From a virus: a DNA stretch of 23,278 nucleotides. The stretch lies in the IMG/VR virus record IMGVR_UViG_3300029267_001278, positions 1 through 23,278 of that record, one strand, 5' to 3'. The notes under the pieces were generated by a model. The model was not told the DNA's origin and searched no databases. It saw only the letters and a list, made by a program, of their open reading frames with translations. This document shows, one piece after another, positions 10,506 through 12,819 of this stretch (positions are counted from its first letter, which is position 1; every line of letters begins with the position of its first letter). The position numbers were made by a program, and so were the translations under genes.

Positions 10506-10969
10506 TGGAACGACCCATCTACACCACCATAACACTAATAGCGATTACCGCGCTACTTCTTAGCGGGTGCAAACTCACCAAAGAAGAGCGGCGAATGAAC
10601 CGCGCTACAAAGAAGCTCGAAAAGCTCACCGCGAAGTACCCTGAATTGGTGCGAACCGACACGATCCGCGACACGCTGCACACCAACCGCGTTCACATCG
10701 ACACGGCCTTTGTGTGGCAATCCGACACGGTTGAGGTAGAGCGGGAAAATTTGCGCGTTCGCATTGTTCGGCTGCCAGGGGATAGCGTATTGATCGACGC
10801 GGAATGCGACACGGTGTTCGTTCCGGTACAGGTTCCATGCGATACCATACAACCCATCCGATACGAACCTTCCGAAAAGCAGCGCCAAAAGACGGACAGG
10901 TGGCGAACTGTCGCTCTGGTGTTCATTGCGATTAGTGTTGTGTTGGGATTGGGGTATTGGTTTAGGTAG
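10502..10969 (+). CDS. Unimolecular spanin (u-spanin) candidate
   Basis: 155 residues. An N-terminal lipoprotein signal ends in the lipobox LLLSGC (Cys23 from the first ATG, Cys22 from the ATG at 10505). A periplasmic region of about 110 residues follows, with regular Asp-Thr/Val alternation (TDTIRDTLHTNRVHIDTAF). The C-terminal transmembrane helix (about 136-154, TVALVFIAISVVLGLGYWF) ends in Arg. One protein with an outer-membrane lipid anchor and a C-terminal inner-membrane anchor is the diagnostic architecture of u-spanins such as T1 gp11. These fuse inner and outer membranes in the last step of lysis of Gram-negative hosts. It lies among replication genes, with no endolysin adjacent. The assignment rests on topology, not on sequence homology. 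Confidence 0.75.
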   Translation: MMERPIYTTITLIAITALLLSGCKLTKEERRMNRATKKLEKLTAKYPELVRTDTIRDTLHTNRVHIDTAFVWQSDTVEVERENLRVRIVRLPGDSVLIDAECDTVFVPVQVPCDTIQPIRYEPSEKQRQKTDRWRTVALVFIAISVVLGLGYWFR

Positions 10970-11020
10970 GCAACGGTTTACGGCTATGCGGTCGTTTTTT
11001 ATGGATTAAAAAAATAAGTT

Positions 11021-11161
11021 ATGAAAGAAGCACTAAAAGAATTACAAGAGATTGAAAAATGGCTCAATAGTTTGGGTCAAGGATGGAACTACTTTGGACA
11101 CGTTGACCGTGCTAAACAAAGATTGAAAAATGCAATGGAGTTAATAAAAAATGCCGTATAG
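11021..11161 (+). CDS. Small helical protein, 46 aa
   Basis: Encodes MKEALKELQEIEKWLNSL ... WNYFGHVDRAKQRLKNAMELIKNAV, two amphipathic helices around a Gly/Tyr turn. It is preceded by an A-rich stretch (AAAAAAATAAGTT) rather than a clear Shine-Dalgarno. Codon and base use match the AT-rich methyltransferase downstream, not the phage. It lies in what would be the loop of the attC-like palindrome. The composition looks like a real protein, but the family is not known. Confidence 0.5.
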   Translation: MKEALKELQEIEKWLNSLGQGWNYFGHVDRAKQRLKNAMELIKNAV

Positions 11162-11166
11162 CCATT

Positions 11167-11739
11167 GTTAGCTGTATGTATTGGCGATTTAGAATCACAG
11201 ACTTATGAAGTACAAAATAATTTATGCCGACCCTGCTTGGAAATATAACGACAAGCAAAATACTCCTAAATTAGGGGGTGCGGCAAAACACTATTCTACA
11301 ATGACGATAAAAGAATTGTGTGCCCTACCAATTAAGAATATGACCGAAGATAATGCTGTACTTTGGTTGTGGACTACAAGCCCATTGCTCGAGGATACTT
11401 TTAAGGTAATTAAGGCTTGGGGCTTTAAGTACAAAACTTCGTTTATTTGGGATAAGGTTAAACACAATATGGGGCACTACAATTCTGTAAGGCACGAACT
11501 TTTGTTGATATGCACAAAAGGTAGTTGCACCCCCGAAAAACGAAAACTTTATGATAGCGTGGTGTCTATACCAAGAACTAAACACTCTAAAAAGCCTGAG
11601 TATTTTGCGAACTTGATAGATGAACTATATCCAAGCGGAAACAGAATTGAGTTATTTGCACGAGATAAAAAGCAGGGTTGGCACGTTTGGGGGAATGAGG
11701 TTGAAGATAGCATAGAACTAAGCCAATATTACAGCTAAC
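11167..11739. repeat. 10-bp inverted repeat flanking MT-A70 (GTTAGCTGTA / TACAGCTAAC)
   Basis: The left arm is 11167-11176 and the right arm 11730-11739, a perfect match. The methyltransferase gene fills the interval almost exactly, and its TAA stop lies inside the right arm. A second imperfect pair (GGCTATGCGG 10982-10991 and CCGTATAGCC 11154-11163, 9 of 10) flanks the 46-aa ORF. Confidence 0.75.
11205..11738 (+). CDS. MT-A70 family DNA adenine-N6 methyltransferase
   Basis: 177 residues. Near the N-terminus IIYADPAWKYND contains the catalytic motif, here DPAW instead of the commoner DPPW. FIWDKVKHNMGHYNSVRHELLLICTKG follows, then the C-terminal SAM-site segment HSKKPEYFANLIDELYPSGNRIELFARDKKQGWHVWGNE. 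This order is typical of small phage and bacterial MT-A70 enzymes, which transfer a methyl group from SAM to adenine N6. A phage copy may protect its DNA from host restriction or mark it; no restriction enzyme is alongside. Base composition differs from the flanking phage genes, and inverted repeats bound the gene, so it was probably acquired as a cassette. Only the target sequence is unknown; the family call is firm. Confidence 0.88.
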   Translation: MKYKIIYADPAWKYNDKQNTPKLGGAAKHYSTMTIKELCALPIKNMTEDNAVLWLWTTSPLLEDTFKVIKAWGFKYKTSFIWDKVKHNMGHYNSVRHELLLICTKGSCTPEKRKLYDSVVSIPRTKHSKKPEYFANLIDELYPSGNRIELFARDKKQGWHVWGNEVEDSIELSQYYS

Positions 11740-11782
11740 TCCGGATAAACTAAGTTCACTAAATTTCACCAACACCAATCAC

Positions 11783-12229
11783 ATGACCCACCTCCGACCA
11801 TACCAACTCGATCTGGTCAACCGGCTTCGATCCGCGATACGTTCCGGCGATCGTCGAGTTATGCTGTGCGCTCCGACCGGGGCTGGCAAGACGGTAATGT
11901 TTGGTTACATGATTTCACGGCATTTGGAACGAGGCGGTCGAGCCGTTGTCTTCACGCACCGGGAAGAACTATTGCGACAAACGGGAGGCGTGTTTGACAA
12001 TTACGAACCGATCCGGTCCAATACGAAACCGGACCTATCCGCTGCTCTGCATATCGGGATGGTAGAAACAGTATCGAGGCGGTTGTCTCGACCGGAGTGG
12101 AGCGAGTGGTTGGCGTCGCGTAGCATGGTAGTGATCGACGAAGCGCACCTGTCGATCTTTGATAAGGTCTTCCCGTGGCTATCTGACGACACCATCGTGA
12201 TCGGAGCCAGCGCGACACCGTACACCTGA
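11783..12229 (+). CDS. SF2 DEAD/DEAH helicase, N-terminal fragment
   Basis: The 148-residue frame begins LRPYQLDLVNRLRSAI (Q-motif-like) and has Walker A CAPTGAGKT (29-37), motif Ia-like VVFTHREELLRQ, DEAH (119-122) and motif III GASATPY (141-147). It then stops. In related phage helicases about 25-35 residues follow SATP before a segment like DLIEKGYL. Here the continuation LIEQGYLAPARTYG appears at once, but in another frame from 12223. Some tens of bases therefore seem to be missing, with the frame lost as well. Alone it would be RecA lobe 1 without lobe 2 and so is unlikely to be active. The gene follows the methyltransferase insert directly. Confidence 0.75.
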   Translation: MTHLRPYQLDLVNRLRSAIRSGDRRVMLCAPTGAGKTVMFGYMISRHLERGGRAVVFTHREELLRQTGGVFDNYEPIRSNTKPDLSAALHIGMVETVSRRLSRPEWSEWLASRSMVVIDEAHLSIFDKVFPWLSDDTIVIGASATPYT

Positions 12230-12279
12230 TTGAGCAGGGCTATCTCGCACCGGCCCGAACGTATGGAATAGACATCGAC

Positions 12280-12819
12280 TTGTCCGGTGTGAAGTTGCGC
12301 GGTAACGATTACGACCTGTCGGGAGTGTATGAAGAGAACCGAACCTACGAGGGCGTGGTGAAAAACTGGAAGCGCCACACGCCCGGAACCAAGACGCTTC
12401 TATTCGCTGCAAACGTGGACGCATCGAAACGTGTGGCGCGCGAGTTTTGCGCGAACGGAATCGAGGCGAAGCACATCGACGGCAATACTTCCGCTGCGGA
12501 ACGCGAAGCGGCGCTGGAATGGTTCGCGTCAACCGACGACGCGGTGCTGTGCAACTGCGGTATTTTGACAGCGGGATTCGACCAGCCCGACATTAAGACA
12601 ATAATTCTGTACCGCGCCACAACGTCGCTGCCTTTGTTTCTTCAGATGTGCGGTAGAGGTTCTCGGACGGCACCTGGTAAAACGCATTTCACGATACTGG
12701 ACTTCGGCAACAACATTCGCCGCCTCGGTCATTGGGAACGCCCCCGCACATCGACACGCGGCGAGTGTCCCGAAACGATGCCGCCCCGGTGCGAATCTGT
12801 CCGAGTTGCGACGCAATGA
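12280..12819 (+). CDS. SF2 helicase, middle fragment (RecA lobe 2)
   Basis: Helicase-like coding in this frame actually begins at about 12223 (HLIEQGYLAPARTYGID); the TTG at 12280 is merely the first usable start. TKTLLFAANVDASKRVARE is motif IV-like, AEREAALEWFASTDDAVLCNCGILTAGFDQPDI is motif V, and LFLQMCGRGSRTAPGK is motif VI with the arginine finger. FTILDFGNNIRRLGHWE follows, as in phage helicases. After about 12740 the reading becomes implausible (RTSTRGECPETMPPRC), while the -1 frame carries the expected continuation. So this is the second of three pieces of one gene covering 11783-13154. A C5 run at 12741-12745 marks the likely break point. Confidence 0.65.
   Translation: MSGVKLRGNDYDLSGVYEENRTYEGVVKNWKRHTPGTKTLLFAANVDASKRVAREFCANGIEAKHIDGNTSAAEREAALEWFASTDDAVLCNCGILTAGFDQPDIKTIILYRATTSLPLFLQMCGRGSRTAPGKTHFTILDFGNNIRRLGHWERPRTSTRGECPETMPPRCESVRVATQ

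Follow-up and report, generated by a model that had tools for sequence, protein, structure and literature searches.

An MT-A70 methyltransferase gene in a phage record is very probably the cargo of an inverted integron-type cassette of Bacteroidota phages

Introduction

Integrons are known bacterial gene-capture systems, and their attC sites have a direction. The choice of attC strand is held to secure the correct orientation of cassettes (PMC8946536). Integron cassettes are also reported to be inserted at non-classical attG sites (Loot et al. 2024, cited in PMC11023631). In Bacteroidetes, IntegronFinder 2.0 found few integrons (PMC9024848).

Phages carry attC as well. Qi et al. 2023 (PMC9892861) described phage attC clusters (CALINs, i.e., attC without intI) with methyltransferases, for example in Polaribacter phage P12002L. 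These were clusters of at least two attC, and the only remark on direction concerned "divergent" attC in P12002L; no systematic inversion, attI-like site, phage recombinase, loop open reading frame (ORF), or single cassettes were reported there. The Forsetiviridae phages Freya and Danklef (Bartlau et al. 2021, PMC8776804) are also relevant, because their genomes provided the exact empty sites described below and have an integrase directly after the variable region. In the passages of that paper that we consulted, this enzyme was treated as a possible lysogeny integrase and as a sign of a temperate lifestyle, and cassette structure was not mentioned.

Here we analyzed a virus record of 23,278 bases in which terminase and primase-like genes are present (IMG/VR record IMGVR_UViG_3300029267_001278; the whole stretch is called the window). 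Like the phage CALINs, the window has phage-borne attC sequence of the same family next to a methyltransferase gene, but it has a single attC, whereas CALINs have at least two. We concluded that the window very probably holds a single integron-type cassette from a pool that circulates among Bacteroidota phages, a cassette that would move as a circle with one attC.

Results

Anatomy of the MT-A70 block

The block at positions 10972 to 11739 consisted, in order, of AAC, an attC palindrome with a 46-aa ORF in its loop, an MT-A70 gene, and the complement of the palindrome's 3' box. The features were as follows.

10972-10974, minus strand: AAC of the left junction; the minus-strand reading G^TT is the attC R' box at the cassette boundary
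10972-11176, no strand assigned: attC palindrome, made up of AAC, arms, loop, and box GTTAGCTGTA
10975-10981: spacer GGTTTAC, 7 nt, between AAC and the left arm
10982-10991: left inner arm GGCTATGCGG
11021-11161, plus strand: 46-aa ORF in the attC loop, with its stop codon within the right arm
11154-11163: right inner arm CCGTATAGCC
11164-11166: spacer ATT, 3 nt, between the right arm and the box
11167-11176, plus strand: end box GTTAGCTGTA, attC R'' on the minus strand, on the 5' side of the MT-A70 gene
11205-11738, plus strand: gene for an MT-A70 family DNA adenine methyltransferase (177 aa; DPAW motif), which is the cargo of the cassette
11730-11739, plus strand: end box TACAGCTAAC at the right end, with the MT-A70 stop inside it (TAC AGC TAA)
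10975-11739, no strand assigned: predicted mobile unit of 765 bp, placed from the edges of exact insertions in the Danklef and Freya phages
11740-11757, minus strand: possible degenerate attI-like half-site TCCGGATAAACTAAGTTC, weak

The MT-A70 product matched PF05063 (E value 8.8e-26) and phrog_359 DNA methyltransferase (E value 1.3e-62), and the 46-aa loop ORF had no match in Pfam or PHROG. The outer boxes were complementary at 10/10 positions and the inner arms at 9/10. Read directly, these pairings bear out the proposal of a first-pass annotation that the ends of an MT-A70 cassette would rebuild an attC-like palindrome. That annotation had described the arm pairing as having a 7-base bulge and two mismatches; the pairing stood, but there was one mismatch, and the "bulge" is the asymmetry between a 7-nt spacer and a 3-nt spacer. 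It had correctly placed the methyltransferase stop inside the AGCTAAC box, and it was also right that the block is more AT rich than its surroundings (G+C content of 36-39%, compared to 53-57% in the nearest flanks).

The block was said to sit between a u-spanin gene and a helicase gene, and its position was as described: a spanin-like gene stops at 10967-10969, and a ResIII/DEAD helicase starts from 11783. However, the spanin is plausible by eye and had no Pfam or PHROG match, and the helicase frame is broken. Specifically, within positions 11783-12819, the first part of the helicase stops at 12229, and homology resumes at 12280 in another frame. Both parts share one frame in the related locus L352, and the break is either a sequencing error or a real pseudogene in the window. 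Viral relatives of the helicase fragment were not found.

As in an attC site, the outer boxes (R''/R') of the unit pair with each other, and so do its inner arms (L''/L'). The unit also had the asymmetric spacers that give an attC its direction: on the minus strand, the spacer next to R'' is 3 nt long and the one next to R' is 7 nt long. The same asymmetry was seen in the Bacteroidota integron attC adjoining IntI. The rebuilt 212-nt attC folded better than shuffled sequences on both strands (z scores of -3.8 and -2.1). The core at the cut is GTTAGCT, which, as noted previously, departs from GTTRRRY at one base; the only constant core in the attC family of the window was GTTA (rarely GTTG). The cut AGCTAA^C is nevertheless not a deviant one: read on the minus strand, it is G^TTAGCT, where integrons normally cut. 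This reading means that gene and attC have opposite orientations compared to the usual cassette, i.e., the gene is inverted, and the attC does not follow the gene's stop codon. An attC body after the right end box at 11730-11739 was absent.

The block could also be a chance palindrome around a horizontally acquired methyltransferase, and more distant phage MT-A70 relatives, at about 72% identity or less, did lack such boxes. However, the pattern AACG..stem..TGTT plus a 10/10 complementary end box occurred once in the window and a mean of 0.017 times in 60 dinucleotide-shuffled windows. Together with the compensating changes and the empty sites reported below, this finding made the probability of a chance palindrome negligible.

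Recurrence of the layout

The four closest viral MT-A70 genes found in IMG/VR (L012-L015, 80-83% identity; 82-83% in the search itself) had the same layout in different sequence contexts. Their boxes (GTTATGCGTA/TACGCATAAC) and palindrome bodies differed from those of the window, and the box changes were compensatory: a change at one end was matched at the other end, as expected of attC boxes. The same anatomy was observed around unrelated cargo in many phage loci, and more than 100 IMG/VR phage loci share it. At the level of sequence, the unit structure and its recurrence in unrelated phages were clear.

Narrow scans of viral sequences for patterns based on the arms in the window mostly turned up chance matches, but L001 proved to be a real array. 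With the palindrome as the query, blastn yielded nothing meaningful in phage and plasmid sequences, and no Rfam family matched.

A compact version of the palindrome, with the same arms and loop start, was found in L009 and in P12002L, whose site AACGGCTACGGCTAAACGGTCGTTTTAATGCCGTTTTAGCCATTGTTAGG closely resembles the window attC. Comparison with the P12002L site showed that the window arms and first loop bases (GGTCGTTTT) make up an ordinary small attC whose loop contains additional sequence. Loop ORFs at L199 3652-3908 and L216 6845-7104 (strand as analyzed), in P12002L, and in Freya_6 were always in the sense of the cassette gene. In Freya_10, one ORF began in the loop and read through the end box into the cassette.

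The first-pass annotation had offered the remnant of a two-cassette array as an alternative, in which the 46-aa ORF would be one cassette, the MT-A70 gene would be another, and parts would have been lost. Such a remnant would account for the single palindrome left, the unusually long loop, and the right end without an attC body. However, the 46-aa ORF is not flanked by end boxes, and the arms are a family-typical pair that includes the conserved TATGCG/CGTATA mismatch, which was also seen in L009. Loop ORFs also recur (in P12002L, L199, and L216), and the comparison of Freya_6 with Freya_5 showed a loop-ORF unit that moved with both genes together. The latter result refutes the remnant for the family and leaves it as a very improbable account of the window.

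Exact insertions in cultured sister phages

Natural empty sites were found in cultured phages. The MT-A70 cassette was present in Polaribacter phages Danklef_1 and Danklef_5 and exactly absent from Danklef_2, Danklef_3, and Danklef_4. When Danklef_1 was compared with Danklef_3, a 778-bp MT-A70 cassette was located exactly between CTCTAAC and TAAAAAGTATATG; the flanks in the Danklef comparisons were 100% identical (99.9% on one side of Danklef_2). A single unit of about 307 bp set Freya_10 apart from Freya_9, and a single unit of about 474 bp set Freya_6 apart from Freya_5. The two units were inserted exactly at ACCAAC|ACCCCTATAACAAC, a site 50 bp upstream of a gene for a 271-aa tyrosine recombinase. 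Like the window cassette, the Freya_6 unit combined a loop ORF (71 aa) with a second ORF enclosed by the boxes, and it was moved whole.

The position of the AAC at 10972-10974 agrees with the left edge of the exact Danklef and Freya insertions. The predicted empty site of the window is GGTTTAGGTAGGCAAC|TCCGGATAAACTAAG, with the junction GGCAAC|TCCGG, and the uninterrupted form would be GGTTTAGGTAGGCAAC|TCCGGATAAAC. An insert-free phage with the window's flanks was not found among the relatives compared; in the nearest relatives (L352, L339, and L343), the primase gene adjoins the helicase gene, and the two genes preceding the insert are also missing. The window unit presumably entered by cassette insertion. 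The earlier proposal that a circular, one-palindrome cassette entered phage DNA after being opened at AGCTAA^C gained support from the recurrent anatomy, the compensating boxes, and the sister-phage empty sites. The first-pass annotation had stated that close relatives with the MT-A70 gene but without the boxes, relatives with the same flanks and no sign of clean insertion, or a palindrome that did not recur near unrelated cargo would count against it; none of these was observed in the relatives.

These comparisons also bear on whether the block is a transposon-like unit, that is, an MT-A70 gene between 10-bp terminal inverted repeats that is moved by a transposase, with the palindrome being incidental. 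The boxes GTTAGCTGTA/TACAGCTAAC do bracket the gene like short terminal repeats. However, the units that moved in Danklef and Freya include the palindrome, there was no target duplication past the shared core AAC/TAAC, and the boxes vary among cassettes yet always match within one, as attC boxes must. We therefore considered a transposon-like unit extremely unlikely.

Gene orientation in phage and chromosomal cassettes

In three chromosomal Bacteroidota loci whose array adjoins a true IntI (L135, L127, and L136), the strand reading AACG..TGTTA carried attC, cassette, attI, and integrase in that order, with the cassette genes on the other strand. The phage system has the same order. Long chromosomal arrays (L169, L171, and L172) whose attC belong to the sequence family found in phages had the same gene direction as the L135-type loci. 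With cassettes called by rule in one script, the gene was on the same strand as AACG..TGTTA (i.e., inverted) in 125 of 130 viral cassettes and 0 of 37 chromosomal Bacteroidota cassettes, the viral loci being mostly metagenomic contigs that were classed as viral and the palindrome patterns biasing the sample toward one attC family. Chromosomal cassette genes thus pointed away from attI (37/37), whereas phage genes pointed toward it. The window, L012-L015, L001, and P12002L were all of the inverted kind.

The attC pattern used to gather the viral loci was blind to gene direction. All cassette counts required a palindrome stem and a complementary end box, and the longest ORF was taken as the gene; the stem was required because a box-only scan gave many false cassettes. 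The five canonical phage calls were mostly short antisense ORFs. At a looser threshold, the sole inverted chromosomal call, L125, was an AT-rich false call. In L381 and L451, the longest ORF in the cassette adjoining the recombinase was canonical (149 and 81 aa, respectively), which is either a spurious antisense ORF or a rare exception.

Our own explanation for the inversion is that it lets the array, the attI-like site, and the recombinase share a direction, which the canonical orientation would not. With the cassette gene flipped relative to attC, an array upstream of attI and the recombinase would all run along the phage operon.

attI-like right ends

Phage arrays ended in a bare box followed by a common sequence that approximates TANTNTATANNCGCAANA. 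The consensus of 69 right ends held 6.1 bits over 24 positions, compared to a control mean of 2.2 and maximum of 3.1. Four held-out right ends, taken from phages that were collected afterward through a different gene, scored 11.8-13.5, and the best of 987 AAC sites in the window scored 3.1. Chromosomal attI sites, in which the cassette end is about 195-226 bp from the IntI start, read TAAC|ATATTAATATGCGAAT and TAAC|ATAATATTATACGAATA. Because the phage right-end sequence has a layout like that of chromosomal attI, we named it attI-like.

The right end of the window was weaker. It failed the ungapped phage attI matrix (score of -18.8), and with one gap it scored 4.2 and ranked 16 of 987 AAC sites. 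Because it fits only with a gap, the right end of the window may be a decayed attI or a looser target. The attI distance was not counted as evidence for the window, since the right end fails the ungapped matrix. Insertion of the type described for attG would place a single cassette at G^TT outside attI and would explain the weak right end.

The weak right ends of P12002L (GTGCCTAAC|AACGGATAAAACAAG) and the window (TACAGCTAAC|TCCGGATAAACTAAG) share CGGATAAA at an equal distance from the box, and this shared sequence is perhaps a second attI variant. Near-alike right flanks were located behind different last cassettes in L201, L194/L202, L199/L237, and L243/L271, suggesting turnover of the cassette adjoining attI.

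A compact recombinase beside the attI-like site

The Freya recombinase matched Xer and integron models below every cut-off (for TIGR02249, 96.5 bits compared to a cut-off of 265), and none of the 46 phage records with arrays had an IntI (TIGR02249 above the cut-off). The phage recombinase has kept the catalytic R, K, HxxR, H, and Y residues. In the alignment, the IntI-specific insert before HxxR was missing, and HxxR was located at residue ~217-222, compared to 265-326 in the IntI proteins examined. L272, a relative of the Freya recombinase, matched the IntI4 crystal sequence in stretches only. In a tree whose deeper branches were uncertain and in some cases long, 13 chromosomal IntI formed one fully supported group separate from the phage enzymes. 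The best matches of the phage recombinase were to Xer structures (XerA, XerC, and XerD) and models, but it was below every Xer equivalog cut-off and, unlike Xer, it adjoins an attI-like site and a cassette array.

Homologues of the recombinase were found directly after array ends in L205, L242, L245, L272, and L277. A recombinase-first search yielded 72 loci with upstream DNA, most of which had a box TAAC|TATTATATATAAAC.. ending 42-54 bp before the gene; in a few, the box ended 32-38 bp before the gene. A complementary partner box and an ORF were present just upstream in 49 of the 72 loci, and 46 of these 49 were codirectional. An attI matrix score of at least 5 was obtained for 32/72 recombinase upstream regions and 2/280 control stretches, and the comparison indicated a conserved attI-like site near the recombinase. 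Cassettes entering at an attI site beside a recombinase were seen in Freya but not in the window, which has no recombinase gene.

The main rival holds that host IntI acts in trans on attC, sometimes into phage DNA, and that the phage tyrosine recombinase is an uninvolved lysogeny integrase; the paper on the Freya and Danklef isolates took their integrase as a sign of a temperate lifestyle (PMC8776804). Host IntI was common: of the 395 Bacteroidota genomes sampled, 105 had a true IntI that exceeded the family cut-off. In addition, one P12002L attC was recombined with attI1 by IntI1 in Escherichia coli (PMC9892861), and most array-bearing phage records tested had no recombinase close to IntI. 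However, phage and chromosomal sets shared no cassette protein and had opposite gene orientations, the entry point of the variable Freya units was precisely the site that adjoins the phage recombinase gene, and recombinases that are only ~34-36% identical to each other have the same short and constant spacing. We regarded action by host IntI in trans as possible but doubtful. The phage recombinase (or host IntI in trans) presumably catalyzes the reaction, to judge from its position and the variation at its site. As a side observation, the IntI frequency of 105/395 is far above the few Bacteroidetes integrons of PMC9024848.

Cassette cargo

Among cassette proteins with a length of 150 aa or more, 28 of 52 from phages had a methyltransferase-type motif, compared to 0 of 40 from chromosomes, and no proteins were common to the two sets. 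Among ten phage cassette proteins that were checked, five were C5-cytosine, N6/N4, or D12 DNA methyltransferases, and one was Mom. MT-A70 was uncommon as a chromosomal cassette, with two weak relatives in 296 genomes. The MT-A70 cargo probably modifies phage DNA against host restriction.

Discussion

The phage system to which the window cassette probably belongs is integron-like, except that its cassettes are flipped and that the recombinase presumed to act on them is not IntI. A circle with one attC would be joined by the tyrosine recombinase at G^TTA to an attI-like site or a looser phage target. The attC family is common to chromosomal arrays (L169, L171, and L172) and the phages, and the attI layout is similar. 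The differences from chromosomal Bacteroidota integrons lie in gene direction and in the integrase, which is a true IntI of about 320 aa in the chromosomal loci. Searches of the open-access journal literature turned up no description of cassettes inverted in phages, of attI sites in phages, or of a cassette recombinase other than IntI.

Bacteroidota phages seem to run a private gene-swapping system, with inverted cassettes often beside their own recombinase. We think it reasonably likely, from the sequence comparisons, that these phages have their own class of integron, in which a compact Xer-like recombinase without the IntI insert shuffles flipped, methyltransferase-rich cassettes, some with a loop gene, at a downstream attI-like site, and that the window holds a stray or relict cassette of this class.

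If true, a separate phage integron class with a DNA-modification pool would explain fast, correctly oriented swaps of antirestriction genes. It is also relevant to the question of whether a recombinase must have the IntI-specific insert to handle folded attC, as an insert-less recombinase seems to serve attC-like sites. Freya and Danklef are cultured phages that differ by single cassettes, which makes the system directly testable, and many "lysogeny integrases" of flavobacterial phages may need reannotation.
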